Part shown: positions 19,253 to 37,205 of the stretch, one piece after another
Layout of the letters: each line of letters opens with the position of its first letter
Numbering within the stretch: the stretch's first letter is position 1
Assembly: GCA_025463875.1 (NCBI GenBank)
Contig: JAODBI010000030.1
Location: 1 to 37,205, forward strand
Length of the DNA stretch: 37,205 nt
Direction of reading: 5' to 3'
Source of the DNA: Actinomycetes bacterium
GTDB lineage: Bacteria; Actinomycetota; Acidimicrobiia; IMCC26256; PALSA-610
The notes under the pieces: model-generated
What the model saw: only the letters and a program-made list of their open reading frames with translations
The model's database searches: none
What the model was told of the DNA's origin: nothing
Program-made: the position numbers and the translations under genes

Positions 19253-19944
19253 TGCAGGTGCTCCGTCCAGCGGTACCCGTCCCAGTAGCGCAACCGGCCC
19301 GAACCCGCCGGGTCCGGGTGCCACCCGGGTGGCACCGACGGCACGTACGCCATGGAGGTGCGCATCCGCCCGCGTCGCACCGAGCCGACGATCAACAGCA
19401 CGATCCCGACGACGAATACGACGCCACCGACAAAGGTCAACGCGAACCAACCGAGCGACGATCGAATCGTGTCGGTGAGCGGGTGCGCGATCAGGACCGT
19501 CGTGGGCGACGCGTTGCGCACGTCGATCGCGTAGTCGCCCGCCGTCGGGGTCGTGAACCGGGCAGCTCCGACGTACCGGTCGCCGTTGTTGTCGAGTGTC
19601 TCGCGGATCGAACCGCGGTCTTTGACCGGCACGCTCACACCGGCCCCGCTCGTCACGGTCACGTCCTCGGGCGAGATCGTCAGCGTGTCGTTGTTCGAGA
19701 ACGCCGAGCCGATCGAATTCGCACCCGTGTGCTCGAACAGCATGTAGTTGCCCCGGCTCAGGTGCACGCGGATCTCGCCCGGGACTGCGTATCGATTCGA
19801 GGTCGTCACAGTGCGGATGATCGGTGCGATCCCGGCGCTGAGTGTCGGGATCGCGAGCGCCAGGCCGGCGATCACGAGGACCAGCGAAAGCCGCAGGCTC
19901 GGACCCGGGGGCCGGGGCGCGGGCGGGATCCCGGTGCTCATCAT
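19249..19944 (-). CDS. Membrane protein with C-terminal DUF2510 motif
   Basis: Two TM segments and PPGWHPDPAGSGRLRYWDGYRWTEH terminal motif; stop overlaps PPK2 start. Confidence 0.85.
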   Translation of the reverse strand: MMSTGIPPAPRPPGPSLRLSLVLVIAGLALAIPTLSAGIAPIIRTVTTSNRYAVPGEIRVHLSRGNYMLFEHTGANSIGSAFSNNDTLTISPEDVTVTSGAGVSVPVKDRGSIRETLDNNGDRYVGAARFTTPTAGDYAIDVRNASPTTVLIAHPLTDTIRSSLGWFALTFVGGVVFVVGIVLLIVGSVRRGRMRTSMAYVPSVPPGWHPDPAGSGRLRYWDGYRWTEHLQ

Positions 19945-20050
19945 CTCTCTATCATCGCTCCTGCCGTGGCGACCTTGACGGGTTCGGCCCGACGGGTTCG
20001 GCCCGTGGTATACGGAAGGGTGCCTCGACATCGCCCGCGGTCGTGACGAG

Positions 20051-21064
20051 GTGAACACACCCGACCCCGGACGAACGCGTTGGTATCGCCGGATCAGCGT
20101 GTCGCGCGTCCTCGTGCTGATCGTCGCCGCGATCACGTTCCACGTCGTGACCCCGAGCATCGTCGAGGTCCTGGGCTCGTGGCCGCGGCTTTCGAGCGTC
20201 GCGCCGTTGTGGCTCGTCATCATCGTCGCCTGCGAGGCGCTCAGCTTCGCCAGCGCGATCACGTTGCAACGCATCGCGCTGCGCACCGACGCGTGGTTCC
20301 CGGTGGCGACCTCGCAGCTGTCGGGGAACGCTGTCAGCCAGATCACGCCCGGCGGCGCGGCGGCGGGCGCGACGTTGCAGCTTCGGATGCTCGGCCGCGC
20401 CGGCAACGACACCACGACCGCGATCGCGGGTTTCACGGCGTTCTCGTTGCTGCAGACCGCGAGCGTCCTCTTCCTTCCCGTGCTGACGCTGCCGACGATC
20501 CTCGTGGGCGCCCCGGTCGATCGTTCCCTCGCTTCGACGGCCTTTCTGGGCATAGGCGGGTTCGTAGCCGTCGCCGTGCTCGGCGCCATCCTGCTCAGCA
20601 CCGATCCGCTCCTCGTCGCGATCGGCCGCGCCTTCCAGGCGGCGCGCAACCGGCTACTGCGCCGGCGGCCGCCGATCACGGGGCTGCCTCAGAAGCTCAT
20701 CCAGGAGCGCAACAGCATCCGGGAGGTGCTCGGTGAGCGCTGGCGCGCCGCGTTGCTCGCGACCGCGTGCCGTCTCGGCTTCGACTTCCTCGCGTTGTTC
20801 GCGGCGCTGGCCGCGGTGGGTGGACTCCCGCGGCCGTCGCTCGCGTTGCTCGCCTATACCGCGGCTTCGTTGCTGGCGATGATCCCGCTCACCCCCGGCG
20901 GGCTCGGTCTCGTCGAGGCGGGCCTGACCGGCACGCTCGCGCTGGCCGGCGTTCAACCCGCGCAGGCCGTGCTGGCGACGCTGCTCTACCGGCTTGCCTC
21001 GTACTGGTTGCCGATCTTTGCGGGCCCGATCGCGTACACGCTCTTCCGGCGCCGCTACCGCTGA
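20051..21064 (+). CDS. Flippase-like / lysylphosphatidylglycerol synthase TM-domain (UPF0104) protein
   Basis: Multiple TM helices, TPGGAAAGA and PLTPGGLGLVEAGLTG motifs. Confidence 0.88.
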   Translation: MNTPDPGRTRWYRRISVSRVLVLIVAAITFHVVTPSIVEVLGSWPRLSSVAPLWLVIIVACEALSFASAITLQRIALRTDAWFPVATSQLSGNAVSQITPGGAAAGATLQLRMLGRAGNDTTTAIAGFTAFSLLQTASVLFLPVLTLPTILVGAPVDRSLASTAFLGIGGFVAVAVLGAILLSTDPLLVAIGRAFQAARNRLLRRRPPITGLPQKLIQERNSIREVLGERWRAALLATACRLGFDFLALFAALAAVGGLPRPSLALLAYTAASLLAMIPLTPGGLGLVEAGLTGTLALAGVQPAQAVLATLLYRLASYWLPIFAGPIAYTLFRRRYR

Positions 21065-21288
21065 CCGCGTCGCGCCGACCGCGTTCCGGCATGTTCGTCG
21101 GACCCGGTCCTTCGGTCGGTCGTCGCGACCGGTGCTCGAATTCCGGCACATCGCACGAAGCGACCCCAACGCCGCGCGCGAAACGTTGCCGGATTGACGT
21201 GCGCACCGGTGCGGGAACATGTCATCGTGAACGATTACTAACGCATAGCTAACGCGAAGGTGGCCCGAAGGTTTCGGGCGCCCGGCCG

Positions 21289-23400
21289 ATGCACCACACG
21301 AACCCGCCGAAGAGACGAGCTTGCCGACAGACGATGCAGACATCTTGTGGGGGCCGAGATGATTCGCTTGTCGCGACGGCGGCGCCTGAGGAGCGCGCCC
21401 GACTGCGCCATCAGCCCGCGCTCGACGGCCTGCGAGGTCTCGCAGTCGCGGGCGTGCTGTTGTTCCACGGCGGCCACCTGCAGGGCGGCTTTCTCGGCGT
21501 AGACGCCTTCTTCGTCCTCTCCGGCTTCTTGATCACCTCACTCCTCCTGGTGGAGGCGACCGAGCGGGGCCGCATCTCGCTCCGCGCCTTCTGGGCGCGC
21601 CGGGCCCGCCGGCTGTTGCCCGCGTTGGCGTGCGTGCTCGGCGCGGTCGCGCTCTACGCCTGGCTGCTCGCCCGGCCCGACGAGCTCGCCACCATCCGGG
21701 GCGATGCGTTCGCCACCATCGGGTACTTCGCGAACTGGCGCGCGATCTTCAACAGTCGCGACTACTGGTCGTTGTTCCGAAGCCCGTCGCCGCTCGACCA
21801 CACGTGGAGCCTCGCTATCGAGGAACAGTTCTACCTGGCGTGGCCGTTGCTGGTGGCCGTCGTCACGATCGGCGCCCGCGGCCGCCGCGTGGCCCGGCGG
21901 GTCCTCGTCGCCTCTGGCGCGCTGGCGCTGGGCTCGCTCGCGTGGATGCTCATCGTCTTCGATCCGACGAATCCGTCGCGCGCCTACTTCGGCACCGACA
22001 CCCGCGTTGCCTCGATCCTGGTGGGCGCGGCGCTCGCGGCGTGGTTGCGATTGCGGGGCCCGACGCGCTCGCGCGCGGTGCGCGGCGCACTCGAAGTCAG
22101 CGCGGTCGGAGCCCTCGTCCTGTTGGCCCTGGCGTGGACGCGGCTGTCGGGATCGTCGACGACGTTGTACCGCGGCGGTCTCTTCGTGTGCGCGCTCTCC
22201 GTAGCGGGCGTGATCGCCGCCGCGGTGCACCCGCGACGCGGCCCCGTCAATCAACTGTTCTCGTTCCGTCCGCTGCGTGCGCTCGGGCTCATCAGCTACG
22301 GCGTCTACCTGTGGCACTGGCCCATCTACGTCGTCCTCGACCGGACGCGCGTCCACCTCGACGGATGGCCCCTCCTCGCGGTGCGCATCGCCGCAACGCT
22401 CTGTGTCGCGATCGTGTCGTACCGCTTCGTCGAGCAACCGATCCGGCACGGCCCGCGAGTTCGAGCGGGATCGCAGCTGCGCCCGCGCACCCTGCGCGTA
22501 GGCGTCGCGTTCGCGACTGCGCTCGCGGTCGTGGTCGCCGTCGTCGCCTCGACCGCGGCCGCGCCGGCCGTGCACGTCGTCGTCGCCGACCAGATCCGAC
22601 CACCCGAGCCGATCGCCGCCACCCCGGCACACCGGTCCGGCCCGGGCGTCTACAAGGTCGGGCTCGTCCAGGACAACGTCCCGCGCCGGGTTCTCGTCGT
22701 CGGCAATTCGATGGCGTTGTACGCCGCCGACGAAGGCTTCAAGCAGATACACACGACCCCACCACTCGACGTCCTGAATCTGGGGTCCATCGGATGCCGC
22801 CTCCTTCCCGAGGAAACGCGCACGCGCTATCCGCGCGGTGGACTCTTCGACGGACAGGCGCGCGTGTGCCGCGACAACTGGGCGACGGCCGTGTCCCTGT
22901 TCCGACCCGACGTCGTCGTGATGCTCGTCAGCGAGCCGACCGACGCCGAGCACGAGATCAACGGGCACTGGACGGCTCCGTGCGAGCCTGCGTACGACAC
23001 CGTCTTCGAACGCGAGTTGCACGATCAGATCCGACTGCTCGCATCGGGCGGCGCGCACGTCATCCTGACGACGACGGCGTATGCGGGCCTCCCCTACAAG
23101 ACGCCGCAGTGGTACGCACACAACGACTGCCAGAACAGACTCATCCGGCGGGTCGCGGCGGCGGAACCCAAAGTTGTGCTGGCCGATCTCTTCGCGTGGA
23201 TGTGTCCCCGACTCGACACGGACTGCTACGCGCACGTCGGCGACGTTGTGCTCCGCCCCGACGGTGTGCACTTCCGCGACACGTCGGCCCGGTTGCTCGC
23301 GGCGTGGCTCATCGCGCAGGGCCGCCATCATGGACTGTTCAGGCATCTGCGCGTCGAGGGTCCCGAGGCGCGCGCGATCGCGACGCCCCCGTCACCCTGA
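21289..23400 (+). CDS. OafA-type acyltransferase 3 with C-terminal SGNH domain (exact start uncertain)
   Basis: ALDGLRGLAVAGVLLFH, FFVLSGFLIT, TWSLAIEEQFYLAWPL, LISYGVYLWHWPI; C-terminal VLVVGNSMALY...RPDGVHF. Confidence 0.93.
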   Translation: MHHTNPPKRRACRQTMQTSCGGRDDSLVATAAPEERARLRHQPALDGLRGLAVAGVLLFHGGHLQGGFLGVDAFFVLSGFLITSLLLVEATERGRISLRAFWARRARRLLPALACVLGAVALYAWLLARPDELATIRGDAFATIGYFANWRAIFNSRDYWSLFRSPSPLDHTWSLAIEEQFYLAWPLLVAVVTIGARGRRVARRVLVASGALALGSLAWMLIVFDPTNPSRAYFGTDTRVASILVGAALAAWLRLRGPTRSRAVRGALEVSAVGALVLLALAWTRLSGSSTTLYRGGLFVCALSVAGVIAAAVHPRRGPVNQLFSFRPLRALGLISYGVYLWHWPIYVVLDRTRVHLDGWPLLAVRIAATLCVAIVSYRFVEQPIRHGPRVRAGSQLRPRTLRVGVAFATALAVVVAVVASTAAAPAVHVVVADQIRPPEPIAATPAHRSGPGVYKVGLVQDNVPRRVLVVGNSMALYAADEGFKQIHTTPPLDVLNLGSIGCRLLPEETRTRYPRGGLFDGQARVCRDNWATAVSLFRPDVVVMLVSEPTDAEHEINGHWTAPCEPAYDTVFERELHDQIRLLASGGAHVILTTTAYAGLPYKTPQWYAHNDCQNRLIRRVAAAEPKVVLADLFAWMCPRLDTDCYAHVGDVVLRPDGVHFRDTSARLLAAWLIAQGRHHGLFRHLRVEGPEARAIATPPSP

Positions 23401-23429
23401 CCGCCCGCTGCGGGACTCCTTGTGACGGG

Positions 23430-24023
23430 TTACTTGGTACGGGCCTTGGTGCGGGACCCGTTCGATCCCGAATCGGTCGCAGTCACGGCCGCGCAGAGCT
23501 GATCGACGGTGCCGCACAGCGCGTCGACCTTGCGCTCGAGCGAAGCCAGTCGGTCGTCATCGACTGACGAACCGCGCTCGGCCTGCTTCAACAACGCGTG
23601 ACATTGCTTGAACAACTGCGCCGAATCGCGCTCCTCCGCGATATACCGCCCGAGGAGCGCACCCGTCGCGATGTCGATCGAGTGATCCTTGAAGAAGTCG
23701 TCGAAGATGTCGGGCTTGTCGCCGCGGTCGAGACGATGCAGCTTCAACGTCTCCATCTTGTCGAGATCCGAGCGGTCGGAGGTCACGAGCGCGATCGCGG
23801 CGGCATCGTCGTCGTCTCCGGGGCGAACGTCGTAGCCGAGCTCGTTGATACGACGACCGAAGGTCATTGCGTGCTCGCCTTCGCGCGCCGCGATCTTGCG
23901 CAACACGGCTCTCACGTCGTCGCTCTTCGTCGTCTCCGCCCACGCGGTCAGGTAGGCGTGGGCCCGCCCCTCTGCGACCGCGATCGCGTTCAGAAGACCG
24001 AGATAGCTCGGCTTGTCGGACAT
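23430..24023 (-). CDS. Ferritin-like-fold hypothetical protein with C-terminal coiled coil
   Basis: LLNAIAVAEGRAHAYLTAWAETT...KIAAREGEHAMTFGRRINELGYDV helical carboxylate/His pattern; ATG at 24023. Confidence 0.65.
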   Translation of the reverse strand: MSDKPSYLGLLNAIAVAEGRAHAYLTAWAETTKSDDVRAVLRKIAAREGEHAMTFGRRINELGYDVRPGDDDDAAAIALVTSDRSDLDKMETLKLHRLDRGDKPDIFDDFFKDHSIDIATGALLGRYIAEERDSAQLFKQCHALLKQAERGSSVDDDRLASLERKVDALCGTVDQLCAAVTATDSGSNGSRTKARTK

Positions 24024-24087
24024 GCGGTCGCCTCCTGCTCCGGGGTTTGCCGGTTCCACGCTCGCGCCAATGGCCCGCAGGGCGCCA

Positions 24088-25686
24088 CTAACGGCCGGAT
24101 GCATCGGCCGGCAGACAGACGCGGGGCGGGGCGTTGCCGTTCCTCGGCCCGATGATCACCGGGCCCGGATCGCTCAGTACGACGACCGACGACCCGTCGG
24201 TCGGCCTGAAGACCAGAGGTACGAGCATGCCGATCTTCGCCGACCGCACCATCAGCGGATTGTCGAACACCCCGATGACGTCGCCCGGCTTCAGGCGCAC
24301 CGCCATCGAATGCAGCAGCCGCCCGCACGCGCCTGACGGGCCGGCGCCCGGCGCCCGGTCGAACGACAGCCGGAAGTCGGTAACCGCGAACGCGGCCTTC
24401 GAGATGTGTCCGCCGGGAAGCTCATGGTGTGCGGCCTGGTCGAGGATCCAACCGACGGTGAGATGCTGCGAGAACGCGGTCTCGGGTCGCAGCGTCCGCG
24501 GCACCTCGCGTGCCCGCGGATCCATCGGGATCGAGATGACCAACCGTCGCGTCTCCTGATCGAGGCGTTGGGCCTCGCGTTCGATGCGGACGAACGCCCG
24601 GACGTTGCCGGGTATCCCGACCAGGAAAAGTGCCATCGCGACCGGAAGGAACCATCGCCCCCGCGAGGTCAGCGCGTCGGCGGCGACCGCGAGCGCGGGC
24701 AGTGTCATCGCCGCGACGAGATACGCGTAGCGGGGCTGGAGCGCGTAGGTGGATCCGAACGACGACGCGCGTCCCGTCGCGGTGATCACGAGGAGAAGCA
24801 GGGAGCCGACAAGCAGGCCGAGTGGCGCCAACCGCGCCGGCAACTGTCCCGATCGGCGCGCCTGGACGACCGCGAGGATGAGTCCGGCGACCAACACGAC
24901 TGCGAGCAGCGATCCCACCCAGGCGACGTTGCCCAGAAGGCCATAGGTGTTGCGGAGGCCCTTCGAGACGAACTCCTCGACGCCGCGCGCCGTCGGCGAG
25001 CCTCGTGTATAGCCCGCGTGCCCTGACGCCGCGAACCACACGCCGTAACACGCGGCCGGCGGAACGACGTGGAAGAGCGCCGCTCGCCATCCGCGCCGAG
25101 CCACGACGACGAGGCCCACGACGATCACCATCGCGACCGCGACGCCCGACGTCATCAGGCCGAGCAGTCCGGCCAGGAGCCCGAGGCGGTCGCGCCGGTC
25201 GAGCGGTCCGTCGTGATCGGCGAGGATGAGATGCGCGAGCCCGAACACGAGTGAGCCGGTGAACCCGATCTGGAATGCGCGGGTGATGTTCGCGCCGCCC
25301 GATCCGAAGAGCACGAACAGCGACGCCGCCGAGGTGGCGATCCAAGGTCGCACGCGCGCCCGGAGCATCACGACGAACAGGAGCGCGGCCGCGGTCAGGT
25401 GCGAGAGCACCGCGCACAGCTGATACGGGAAGTACGTGTGCAGCCCGAAGATGCCGTAGAGCGCGCGGTACAGGAGCACCGGCAGGGTCTGCCAGTGCTC
25501 GTTGTGCGGGCGGAACAGGTCGCCGAGATCTCCCGCTCGACGCGTGGCGAGGAAGTCCCACTCGTCGTTGTAGAACCACAGCCATCGACCGAGCACCATG
25601 TAGAGCGCCAGCGCGCCCGCCTCGACCGCGGCGAAGACGGCGATCGGGGCTCGGTCGACGATCCGGCTATCGCGCCGCGGCCTCAC
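24088..25686 (-). CDS. Polytopic membrane protein, GT-C glycosyltransferase-like
   Basis: About 10 hydrophobic segments; N-terminal WLWFYNDEWDFLATR with acidic loop and PHNEHWQTLP. Confidence 0.75.
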   Translation of the reverse strand: MRPRRDSRIVDRAPIAVFAAVEAGALALYMVLGRWLWFYNDEWDFLATRRAGDLGDLFRPHNEHWQTLPVLLYRALYGIFGLHTYFPYQLCAVLSHLTAAALLFVVMLRARVRPWIATSAASLFVLFGSGGANITRAFQIGFTGSLVFGLAHLILADHDGPLDRRDRLGLLAGLLGLMTSGVAVAMVIVVGLVVVARRGWRAALFHVVPPAACYGVWFAASGHAGYTRGSPTARGVEEFVSKGLRNTYGLLGNVAWVGSLLAVVLVAGLILAVVQARRSGQLPARLAPLGLLVGSLLLLVITATGRASSFGSTYALQPRYAYLVAAMTLPALAVAADALTSRGRWFLPVAMALFLVGIPGNVRAFVRIEREAQRLDQETRRLVISIPMDPRAREVPRTLRPETAFSQHLTVGWILDQAAHHELPGGHISKAAFAVTDFRLSFDRAPGAGPSGACGRLLHSMAVRLKPGDVIGVFDNPLMVRSAKIGMLVPLVFRPTDGSSVVVLSDPGPVIIGPRNGNAPPRVCLPADASGR

Positions 25687-25747
25687 GAGGTCGGCGGGTC
25701 GTCACGGGGAACGCAGCACAAGCGGACGATCGTATGACGAACCTGGT

Positions 25748-25769
25748 GACACCAAGAGGGACAGGGCAG
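25748..25769 (+). repeat. Left copy of 22-bp perfect inverted repeat GACACCAAGAGGGACAGGGCAG
   Basis: Exact reverse complement at 29501-29522. Confidence 0.95.
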
Positions 25770-25885
25770 GGGCAAGCGACGAGGACAGAGGCGACACACG
25801 GGGCGGGGCAGGCACGGGCAGGGCCGAAGGACAGGCACGAGGAAGGGACAGGACGGGGCGGCGATGCCAGAGGGGCGGCAGCGCG
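25766..25885 (+). repeat. Copy 1 of a diverged ~120-bp direct repeat
   Basis: Aligns by eye with 29372-29490; shared blocks include gcaagcgacg, cacgaggaa, ggcggcgatgcc/gtcggcgatgcc, ggggcggca. Confidence 0.8.
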
Positions 25886-26422
25886 CCAGCAAGCGCGGCG
25901 ACCGCGGACAGGTACCGCGAAAACCTGGCCAGATGGGCAGGTTCGGTGGGTTGGTGGGCACCTCAGGTCCGCGCTTGAGGCGCGAGTCAGGGAGGCCCAT
26001 GTTGATGGCACGGCGGTTGTCGCGTTCGGATTCATTGTTCTCATCGCGGGCTCCCTCATCTGCGCGCGTGGGTCAGCGACGCGGCGAATTCGCAGCACAA
26101 TGTCCGCAGAACGCATACGAGGCTCGGCGCCACTCTGGCGTCTACACCCCGGGATACTTCGCCCACTTTTCCGACACGGCACGGGACTACGAGTTCCGCC
26201 ACACTCGTCCCGAGATAACCGAAGCATTCGACCGGCAAGTCGCGACGAGCCGAGCCGTCTCTCCTACGTGAACGGCTCAGGTCCAATGGGCACGGGCCGT
26301 AACCTTTAAGACCTGGCCTTGAGGCCCACAATCTTGCCCGTAGCTCCGCAGCGGGAATCCGAAAAGGGCGGCTGATCAACCTCTTCCGACGGCGACGCCC
26401 TCGAAGCTCGGTAGTCGGCCAA

Positions 26423-27553
26423 GTGACCGAGATCAGCAGTGCCTCGGACGATGACGACGCGATGGCGGTCGTCGGCGACGACGATCGACTTGTTGAAGTC
26501 GACGTTGTAGGCGAATCGCATCGACAGGATGCCCTCGAACGGATTGCTGGCTCTCGCACTGATCGCGGCAAGCATCATCACGTCGGCGTGACCCTTCGTT
26601 GCGACCCAAAGAACGAGCATGACCGCAACGCGATACGCGTCGAATGCATGGGACAGTTGCTCGGTTACATTCCGCGGGCGACGGCGACTCAACTTTCGGC
26701 AGCGATGGAAGCACGCTGCGGATCGGTGCTTGAAGGCGTCGGCTTCATTGTTGGTGGTTGGGACGACGGCGACAGCATCGGCTCGTACGGCGTGCGCGTG
26801 TGGATAGGTAAGGAGGCGCTCAACCGGATCGGAGTGAATCCGAGCGCGGTACAGCGCGACCCTTACACGCGATCGGGATCCGCATCGACATCTCTACACG
26901 GGGCGTCGAGCGATCTCGATACGGGCTTCTCCAATGCATGGGAAACCGATGACGACGACGACAGTTACGACCTGTCCTGGTACGAACAACTACCGGAAGC
27001 GGATCGACCCGCTATCGAGATGCTTCGCAAGCTGCTCGCCACGGAAGCCGATCCGTTCGACCGACACTTCCAATACTCAGTGCTTGAACACCGGCTGTAC
27101 CGATGTCGAACACTCTACGATTCCGCACTCGACGAGTACGACACCACTTGTGTCGCACACGACGCCGAGATGGCAACGATGCGAGCGGTGTTCCTGGGTA
27201 AGTGGGGAAAGGTTCCGCGCCTCGATCTCTACCGGCAGATGGCAATCCGTCAATCCAAGGCGCACGACTGGAACGCGGCGCTCTGGTGGAGCGAGCGCGG
27301 GCTCGCCGTCTACGGCGAGGATGCAGCTCGTGAGGCGGCGGTCGAAGACCTCATGAAGCGCCGTATCCAGGCGGTAGCAAAGCTCAATCCGCAGCCCGTG
27401 CAGCCGCGAACCCCGGCCGCGACGACCTCTGGTCTCGCCGCGCCAAGCCTCGAAGACCTTGACTGCAAGTCATGCGGCGCGACGTTTCAACGGGTCAAGG
27501 TCAAGGGACGGAAGCCTCACCTTTGCCCCGACTGTCGAACTCGACGCGATTGA
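26423..27553 (+). CDS. HIRAN domain protein with C-terminal zinc ribbon
   Basis: VDVVGESHRQDAL...VTLRCDPKNEHDRNAIRVECMGQLLGYIPRATA matches the HIRAN pattern; CKSCGATFQRVKVKGRKPHLCPDC C-terminal CxxC pair. Confidence 0.85.
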   Translation: MTEISSASDDDDAMAVVGDDDRLVEVDVVGESHRQDALERIAGSRTDRGKHHHVGVTLRCDPKNEHDRNAIRVECMGQLLGYIPRATATQLSAAMEARCGSVLEGVGFIVGGWDDGDSIGSYGVRVWIGKEALNRIGVNPSAVQRDPYTRSGSASTSLHGASSDLDTGFSNAWETDDDDDSYDLSWYEQLPEADRPAIEMLRKLLATEADPFDRHFQYSVLEHRLYRCRTLYDSALDEYDTTCVAHDAEMATMRAVFLGKWGKVPRLDLYRQMAIRQSKAHDWNAALWWSERGLAVYGEDAAREAAVEDLMKRRIQAVAKLNPQPVQPRTPAATTSGLAAPSLEDLDCKSCGATFQRVKVKGRKPHLCPDCRTRRD

Positions 27554-27778
27554 TCGCTTTGGTCACGTCTGACGACCGACCCCTCGTCGGAGCGGATTTC
27601 TTGCTTGCGCCGAACGGTACTGGCGGCGAAGTCGCGTTCGTCCCCGCGCACGAATAGTCGCCGGACTCGACCCCTCTGCCTAACGTCGGTCGGGACGCGC
27701 GCTGAGGCGGCGTGTCCAGTGCGTCGGCCGGCTGGATGGTGCGTCTCGCGAGCCCTTACTGGCGGGAGCCTCGGGAGG

Positions 27779-28834
27779 TTAGGGACTGCGGGCGAGCTGG
27801 GCGTCGATGCCGGTGGCGGTCGAGCCGACGGTGACCGTGACCGAGGTCGCCGAGGCGGCGGTCGGCGCGTTGTTGAACCACTGGATCGCAAGACCAGACC
27901 CGCTGGGTGGCGCGAAGCGAACTCGATAGGCGGCCGGTCGAACGCCGCTGATGCGGTACGAACCATCGGCGGCGGTTGTCGCGCCGAAGGAGCCAACCCA
28001 CCTGTCTCCCGGACCGTATGCCCATACGGTCACGCCTGAAACGCCAGCGCCGGCGGTATCCGTGACGACACCGGCGATCGCGCCGCCCGCGGCGAGTTGC
28101 GCGTTGGCCGTCACGACGGCGTCATTGAAGGCGGTCCCCAACAAGATGCCGGCGGCGCCTCTGCGGTGCGTCCGATTGTCGAACCATTCCGCAATCAGAT
28201 CGGTCCCGGCCGGCGGCCCGAATCGGACGGTGTAAATGCCGGTTGGGTTGATGTCGAGCTCGTACGCTCCGTTTCGATCCGTCACAGTTCGCAGCGATCC
28301 AACCCAGCTGTCCGAGACTGTGTACGCCCACACGTCGGTGTTCGCCAGCGCATGCCCATCCGGTCCGGTGACCGAACCTTTGATCGCGAACCTCGCCGCA
28401 GCCTGAGGCGTGAACGTGATCGGAGTGACGACGATCTCGAACGTGACGACATCGGCCGCGCCGATGGCGCAGTGCGCCGTCGATGCGGCACAGTCGATCG
28501 TCGTTCCCGAACTCGACGGTGTGATGAAGCGGAACACGGTAACCGGTACCGAGAACGCACCGGTTGCGTCCGTCGTGAGGCTCTCAAATGTCGTACCGCA
28601 GTCCGATGAACTGGGCGGTTGTCCGGTAATAACGCCCTCGCAGAAATCGACGACCGTTGAAGCCGGGAACCCGGTACCTGCGAGGGTGACGACATCGCCC
28701 CCGACGAGCCCCGTGTCGGGCGTGACCGTCAACGAACGGGTCGTCTGCGCCGAACTCTGCGAGGTTGGTGGCCCTACAAGAGCCAACGTACCGCTCACCA
28801 ACAACAGAAGAGCGATGCGAAGCATCCACCTCAT
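27779..28834 (-). CDS. Secreted protein with IPT/neocarzinostatin-like N-terminal domain and two carboxypeptidase-regulatory-like repeats
   Basis: Signal peptide MRWMLRIALLLLVSGTLALVGPPTSQSSAQ; LTVTPDTGLVGGDVVTLAGTGF; two homologous ~95-aa units (VWAYTVSDSWVGS.../VWAYGPGDRWVGS...). Confidence 0.85.
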   Translation of the reverse strand: MRWMLRIALLLLVSGTLALVGPPTSQSSAQTTRSLTVTPDTGLVGGDVVTLAGTGFPASTVVDFCEGVITGQPPSSSDCGTTFESLTTDATGAFSVPVTVFRFITPSSSGTTIDCAASTAHCAIGAADVVTFEIVVTPITFTPQAAARFAIKGSVTGPDGHALANTDVWAYTVSDSWVGSLRTVTDRNGAYELDINPTGIYTVRFGPPAGTDLIAEWFDNRTHRRGAAGILLGTAFNDAVVTANAQLAAGGAIAGVVTDTAGAGVSGVTVWAYGPGDRWVGSFGATTAADGSYRISGVRPAAYRVRFAPPSGSGLAIQWFNNAPTAASATSVTVTVGSTATGIDAQLARSP

Positions 28835-28989
28835 GGTGACTCCATCGAGTCTTCGGGGGGTTCAGATTACCCCGATGACGAGAACATGTCGATAGTCGGA
28901 CGGAGAACCCGAACGCTCCGTGATCCGGTGCGCATCCCCACGGCGCGCTCATAACAACGCTGAGTACGCATCCGAAGCTCTCGCATAAA

Positions 28990-29360
28990 TCAAACCATCT
29001 GCATCAGAGGCGTTGCGGCGCACGCGCGAAGCAGGACGAGTACAGACCCGCAGCCGATCTGGACGCCGACTTGCCCGGCGCGACGAGCGCGCCACCACGA
29101 CTCCCCTTGCGCCGCGTTGCGAATGTAGGAGACAAGGCATGCAATAAGGCATGACATGACGAGCACTGCGAAACCCCACGCTGCGAGATATCCAGCACGG
29201 GGTGGATGTAACCGCTCCCGTCAGCGAGGATCCGGTGGACATCCGGCGTGTGCGGCTTGACGATGACGTGCACCAGGGCAAAGACACCGAGCGCAGCCGC
29301 GTTCGTGAATACAGCGACAGTGATGAGACTCGCAGTCTCGACGAGCGGCGACAGCGCGCC
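28990..29360 (-). pseudogene. Truncated, frameshifted membrane-protein fragment (DUF6338-like by memory)
   Basis: GALSPLVETASLITVAVFTNAAALGVFALVHVIVKPHTPDVHRILADGSGYIHPVL continues only after a frame change near 29196 as AGYLAAWGFAVLVMSCLIACLVSYIRN... to TGA at 28990-28992. Confidence 0.55.
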
Positions 29361-29371
29361 CTGAACGACGC

Positions 29372-29490
29372 GCAGGTGCAAGCGACGGGACCAGAGCGGA
29401 CGACCCACGGGCACGGGCAACGGGCAGGCCCGAAGACAGCCACGAGGAACGAACAGGGCGGGTCGGCGATGCCGGCGGGGCGGCAACGCG
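29372..29490 (+). repeat. Copy 2 of the diverged ~120-bp direct repeat
   Basis: Aligns with 25766-25885 at nearly equal length. Confidence 0.8.
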
Positions 29491-29500
29491 ACAAACGCAG

Positions 29501-29522
29501 CTGCCCTGTCCCTCTTGGTGTC
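29501..29522 (-). repeat. Right copy of 22-bp perfect inverted repeat
   Basis: ctgccctgtccctcttggtgtc, exact reverse complement of 25748-25769. Confidence 0.95.
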
Positions 29523-29538
29523 GACGAACCTGGCTGGC

Positions 29539-29615
29539 TGGTGGGCGATAGAGGACTCGAACCTCCGACCTCCTGCGTGTGAAGCAGGCGCTCTAACCAG
29601 CTGAGCTAACCGCCC
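29539..29615 (-). tRNA. tRNA-Val(CAC), CCA end encoded
   Basis: GGGCGGTTAGCTCAGCTGGTTAGAGCGCCTGCTTCACACGCAGGAGGTCGGAGGTTCGAGTCCTCTATCGCCCACCA; acceptor GGGCGGT/ATCGCCC, anticodon loop TTCACAC. Confidence 0.95.
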
Positions 29616-36564: not shown

Positions 36565-37205
36565 TCACTTTGATTTTCCGGCCGCCGCGGATTCCAGCAG
36601 TTCGCATAGCTGAGTGATCGCCCACGGGGCCGACTCGACACCAGCGGCCATTGCCGGGGTTGTCTTCCGGCCCGCGGCCTTGGTCAGCGTCTCATGCGGA
36701 CGGCAGAGGTTGTAGTAGGCGAAGTAGAGCGCGATCGCCGCGGCGTGGTTCTCGATCCGCTTGCTGTGCGCGTTCGTCAAGCGGGTAAACCGGCGCATCG
36801 ACATGCGCATCGTGAGGTTCTGGCGCTCAACGTAGCTGGTGCTCACCATGGCCTCATCGGGGTCGCCCGAGATGAGGTGCTTCTGGATCGAGCTGCACGT
36901 CGCCGGGCTGTACTTCCGGGCCTCATCACCCGTCGCGCCCTTGTACTCCTTCACCACGATCGCGTAGTCGATCTTGTCGCCCCACAACGCGTGCACGACC
37001 GGCTGGTACGCGCCGAGGCCGTCTGTCGTGAACTGGAACCGATGACCCGGCACCATGCGCGCACGCAGGTCGCGGAGGAAGTCGTAGCAGTCCTCGGTCG
37101 ACCGGTCACCCACGAGCCACGACGGGATCAGCTTCGTCACCGCGTCGATCGCGGTCCACGTCCACACCGATCCGTAGTTCGGGTCGTCCTGGTGGTCAGC
37201 GGGAC
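36565..37205 (-). CDS. IS1-like DDE transposase, N-terminus beyond window end
   Basis: VWTWTAIDAVTKLIPSWLVGDRS, FTTDGLGAY, YVERQNLTMRMSMRRFTRLTNAHSKRIENHAAAIALYFAYYNLCRPHETL; frame open to window edge. Confidence 0.9.
   Translation of the reverse strand, partial: PADHQDDPNYGSVWTWTAIDAVTKLIPSWLVGDRSTEDCYDFLRDLRARMVPGHRFQFTTDGLGAYQPVVHALWGDKIDYAIVVKEYKGATGDEARKYSPATCSSIQKHLISGDPDEAMVSTSYVERQNLTMRMSMRRFTRLTNAHSKRIENHAAAIALYFAYYNLCRPHETLTKAAGRKTTPAMAAGVESAPWAITQLCELLESAAAGKSK

Follow-up and report, generated by a model that had tools for sequence, protein, structure and literature searches.

The segment at 25748-29522 of the window (the whole 37,205-nucleotide stretch of DNA analysed here) is probably a non-autonomous, transposon-like cassette of the mobile insertion cassette type that is moved in trans by a DDE transposase, a reading to which we give a probability of roughly 0.72. 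In this reading the inverted ends, of 22/23 bp, would be bound by a DDE-type transposase whose gene lies elsewhere; the cassette would be cut out together with its two passenger genes and joined to a 10-11 bp staggered cut in the small gap that separates tRNA-Val from the following gene, so that one copy of GACGAACCTGG flanks it on either side. Before insertion, or after excision, tRNA-Val-CCAGCCAGCCAGGTTCGTC would be joined straight to ATACGATCGTCCGC with a single repeat copy. In this scheme the action of a transposase in trans, the direction of the event, and the mobility of the cassette in one piece are all presumed. If the scheme is right, it would represent cargo transport by transposase-less cassettes, with a HIRAN-domain passenger, in an apparently little-studied bacterial lineage.

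The order of the features is given in Table 1. The coordinates and sequences of the inverted ends and of the flanking repeat proposed in an earlier sequence-only reading of this DNA were reproduced exactly, and the same 5 bp distance was found between the end of the right duplication and the encoded CCA of tRNA-Val(CAC). The two inverted repeats are perfect inverses of each other, are separated by 3731 bp, and read GACACC at their ends. If the unpaired T at 25747 is counted in, the ends read TGACACC, the inverted repeat extends to 23 bp, its outermost pair being a T/C mismatch, and the duplication is then 10 bp long (ACGAACCTGG).

Table 1. Features of the cassette and its right-hand neighbour (positions are those of the window).
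Feature	Coordinates	Strand	Basis or remark
11-bp direct repeat, left copy, GACGAACCTGG (target-duplication-like)	25736..25746	+	sequence; 7 bases kept in G003
Left terminal inverted repeat, GACACCAAGAGGGACAGGGCAG, 22 bp; unpaired T at 25747 just before	25748..25769	+	
T-poor block just inside the left inverted repeat, with a single T among 126 bases; repeated directly at 29375-29500	25770..25895	+	
Cargo gene, 376 aa, HIRAN domain (residues 48-102) and C-terminal FPG/IleRS-type zinc finger	26423..27553	+	Pfam
Cargo gene, 351 aa, secreted-type protein with neocarzinostatin-like and carboxypeptidase-regulatory-like domains	27779..28834	-	Pfam
Right subterminal T-poor block, 3 T; direct repeat of 25770-25895	29375..29500	+	
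Right terminal inverted repeat, perfect inverse of left	29501..29522	-	
11-bp direct repeat, right copy, GACGAACCTGG	29523..29533	+	
tRNA-Val(CAC) with encoded CCA; lies beside the element, outside it	29539..29615	-	Rfam

A chance origin of the inverted ends and the duplication is excluded. In 60 simulated windows (third-order Markov) inverted repeats reached at most 19 bp, compared with 22 bp here, and no duplication adjoining an inverted repeat of 12 bp or longer exceeded 9 bp, compared with 11 bp; with up to three mismatches allowed, 0.00 matches to the 22-mer are expected per shuffled window. Mobile insertion cassettes carry one or more passenger genes between inverted repeats, have no transposase gene, and are flanked by a target duplication (PMC3913671). 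The segment here is likewise bracketed by inverted repeats, perfect over a length exceeding any that was simulated, and by an 11-bp target-site duplication (10 bp with T25747 in the repeat); it holds passenger genes but no transposase gene in the Pfam, NCBIfam and PADLOC scans, which returned only HIRAN/zinc-finger and carboxypeptidase-regulatory/neocarzinostatin domains.

The 3.8-kb segment is foreign to its host DNA. Its GC content is 0.64 as opposed to 0.69 in the rest of the window, its tetranucleotide composition deviates more than that of any other part of the window, and the GC3 values of its cargo (0.68 for the HIRAN gene and 0.76 for the 351-aa gene) lie below those of the neighbouring genes that were measured (0.82-0.92). 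The 376-aa protein matches PF08797 (E 1.9e-9) and PF06827 (E 6.5e-6), and the 351-aa protein matches PF13620 (E 8.6e-16) and PF00960 (E 3e-9). The HIRAN gene has matches in 4/58 genomes of the order, its own included, the remaining three being partial with 36-50% identity, and it is absent from the 13 other genomes of the family. Four phage records match its product within the HIRAN region only, plasmids yielded no match to it, and no relative was confirmed in genome_contigs or viral_contigs by a method that detects close relatives only. A weak PADLOC match of this protein spans the HIRAN region alone and is insufficient for assigning it to defence. Among the cargo and end ORFs the Pfam, NCBIfam and PADLOC scans recognised neither a transposase nor an integrase or invertase, in agreement with the earlier impression that no mobilisation gene is visible.

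Two genomes of the same genus (G001 and G003) share the M20 peptidase gene and tRNA-Val with the window, and in both of them homology goes no further than the 3' end of the tRNA. It picks up again in G001 at window position 19920, such that the whole of the region from 19.9 to 29.5 kb is variable; in place of the 9.6 kb downstream of tRNA-Val (window 19920-29538) this genome has approximately 5 kb of other genes. The left-flank gene is present in G003 with 84% amino acid identity, and DNA homology spans 23884 to 25742, ending within the left duplication with nothing of the cassette beyond. Seven bases of the left duplication (GTTCGTC on the other strand) are kept in G003 at the point where homology stops. 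However, the neighbour upstream of the left-flank gene in G003 is a paralog of that gene and not tRNA-Val, and G003 is therefore not a clean empty site; its tRNA-to-gene junction is rearranged at the same place as the insertion. The cassette is missing from both genomes; syntenic sharing of the whole segment by relatives, which the sequence-only reading had named as counting against it, is thus not what they show. That reading had also called for a relative with one repeat copy beside tRNA-Val, and such a pre-insertion junction was seen in no relative examined. The 532-aa protein encoded at 24088-25686 has no Pfam match, but ten more related matches are present in its own genome, indicating an expanded paralogous family.

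The conserved left flank also bears on whether the structure is an assembly artefact of a metagenome-style bin, in which unrelated contigs have been joined and the repeats made at the joins. The genome is certainly fragmented (4.6 Mb in 403 contigs, 88% complete), but the conserved left-flank DNA runs exactly up to the repeat, and simple fold-back or chimeric joining does not make two kinds of repeat, direct and inverted, at both joins; we regard an artefact as most improbable. It is also very unlikely that the 3.7 kb is an invertible segment that flips at its 22-bp inverted repeats, with the outer direct repeat being coincidental or ancestral. Perfect inverted repeats of 22 bp are within the size range of invertible segments, but inversion leaves the abutting 11-bp direct repeat unexplained, no invertase gene was recognised in the scanned ORFs, and the DNA is foreign and missing from relatives.

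The position next to tRNA-Val could suggest instead the remnant of an island integrated site-specifically at the tRNA, with the 11-bp repeats as the core, the inverted repeats as integrase arm sites, and the integrase since lost. The distance of just 5 bp from the tRNA 3' end is consistent with this, as is the finding that the sequence downstream of tRNA-Val is different in each same-genus relative examined. However, the duplicated 11 bp is not tRNA sequence, lying beyond the tRNA 3' end with 5 bp in between, whereas the core repeat of a tRNA-integrated island is expected within the tRNA gene, and neither an integrase gene nor a remnant of one was recognised in the scanned ORFs. In the usual attachment-site layout no perfect 22-bp inverted repeats abut both cores, as they do here. 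Moreover, when the segment and one repeat are removed only about 65 bp is left between the tRNA and the next gene start, and insertion near the tRNA therefore requires no tRNA targeting, making its nearness unsurprising. The scar of an island at a tRNA site, offered as an alternative in the sequence-only reading, is for these reasons less well supported than a transposon-like cassette, and we consider it unlikely.

The cassette is the sole copy found in all of the genomes searched. Allowing up to three mismatches, the 22-mer has no site in its own genome besides these two and none in the 13 other genomes of the family, and an 18-mer with three mismatches gives a handful of scattered matches in the genus, near the control level. 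None of the other 57 genomes of the order contains a relaxed end pattern, which has one match outside the window in 398 genomes of the phylum, at chance level, and is at chance level in viral contigs; a class sample of 396 genomes gave three lone matches against a control count of five. There is no exact match in genome_contigs (a collection of 85,462 species that may omit the record of the window itself), plasmids and phages provided short weak DNA matches in plasmids only, with none spanning the element, and an Rfam scan detected nothing but the tRNA. A dispersed REP- or MITE-like repeat can be dismissed, given that no other genome of the order has the relaxed pattern and that it occurs at chance level in the phylum and in viral contigs. 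A generic tRNA-downstream sequence, which the sequence-only reading had put forward as a possible undoing of its proposal, is likewise not what the genome, family, order, phylum and class searches reveal, and relatives carry different sequence after the same tRNA.

Mobilisation of a cargo element in trans is thus the best supported of the earlier proposals, in that the DNA is foreign, no recombinase is recognised, inverted ends are combined with a duplication, and homology of the left flank to G003 stops within the duplication; its expectation of further loci with the same ends around different cargo did not hold, no second locus being found, and neither was there a clean empty site. A transposase with matching ends was also not found in these searches, in a fragmented assembly that could hide such a partner. 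Multi-copy elements often drop out of fragmented assemblies, and the absence of an autonomous partner is therefore weak evidence. A truncated transposase gene is present at 36568-37167, cut by the contig end at 37205, with weak IS1/IS6/IS481-type matches (PF03400, E 2.6e-6). This gene was considered as the partner and rejected, its visible flank being unlike the cassette ends.

The cassette shares its plan with known mobile insertion cassettes, namely MIC231 (Bacillus cereus), mic-qnrD, and the mic with qnrS2. The mic elements with qnr genes are likewise described without a matching transposase. It differs from them in carrying two unrelated passengers and T-poor direct subterminal repeats, in being present in single copy with putative mobility, and in having ends that match no other site found. 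A match of the ends to an autonomous IS of the kind seen for MIC231 was not found with up to three mismatches in its own genome, a fragmented assembly, or in the family, and in the order, genus and class matches were at or below control.

Target duplications in the IS4 family are about one helix turn in length, 10-13 bp, with a family range of about 8-13 bp (PMC2266710, Table 1), and the 10-11 bp here is similar to those of the IS231, ISH8 and IS4 subgroups. The terminal bases of IS4 subgroups are CAT, CA, CT or -AATR, with CAT/CA/CT at the ends of IS231, ISH8, IS4Sa and IS10 (PMC2266710), whereas the GACACC or TGACACC here fits no known subgroup. The IS4 hallmark is a DDE transposase with a YREK motif, and no transposase domain was recognised in the segment. 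The ends being unlike those of IS4 subgroups, we make no family assignment despite the fitting duplication length. Non-autonomous elements with Tn3-type ends are usually in single copy and can move cargo (PMC4133298), as proposed for the cassette here, but their ends are approximately 38 bp and their duplications 5-6 bp, as compared with 22 bp and 10-11 bp.

The sequence-only reading overlooked a pair of 126-bp subterminal repeats, which adjoin the inverted ends and are in direct orientation, with 79% identity over 133 aligned columns. Their alignment score of 138 compares with a shuffled maximum of 60, and the two blocks are the most T-poor 126-base stretches in the whole window. Simple transposition does not account for these direct repeats. 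They could point to a composite or mosaic origin, in which two related end units surround the cargo with the inner ends decayed and the outer ones intact, and their position next to the ends together with the high alignment score speaks for this. However, the similarity does not demonstrably run on into inner copies, in decayed form, of the inverted repeats or the duplications (not significant in shuffles, with p from 0.21 to 0.75), and no single unit was found elsewhere. The block has only short G+C-rich matches near chance elsewhere in the family, with four inspected contexts having no related block. A composite origin is doubtful, and would refine the transposon reading rather than replace it. 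Each of the rivals – composite, lost-integrase island, invertible segment and artefact – covers less of the evidence or needs unsupported steps. We view with similar reserve the idea that this cassette is the first member seen of a transposon family not yet described, in which the ends would measure 22/23 bp, the duplications 10-11 bp, and the almost T-free subterminal direct repeats would act as transposase-binding arms. The nearly T-free repeats nonetheless provide a searchable signature for an autonomous partner. Between the 351-aa gene and the right end, at 28993-29498 on the minus strand, there are two stretches of membrane-protein-like sequence (e.g. SPLVETASLITVAVFTNAAALGVFALVHVIV) in different frames; the scanned ORFs of this region have no Pfam match, and the two stretches could be a decayed gene.
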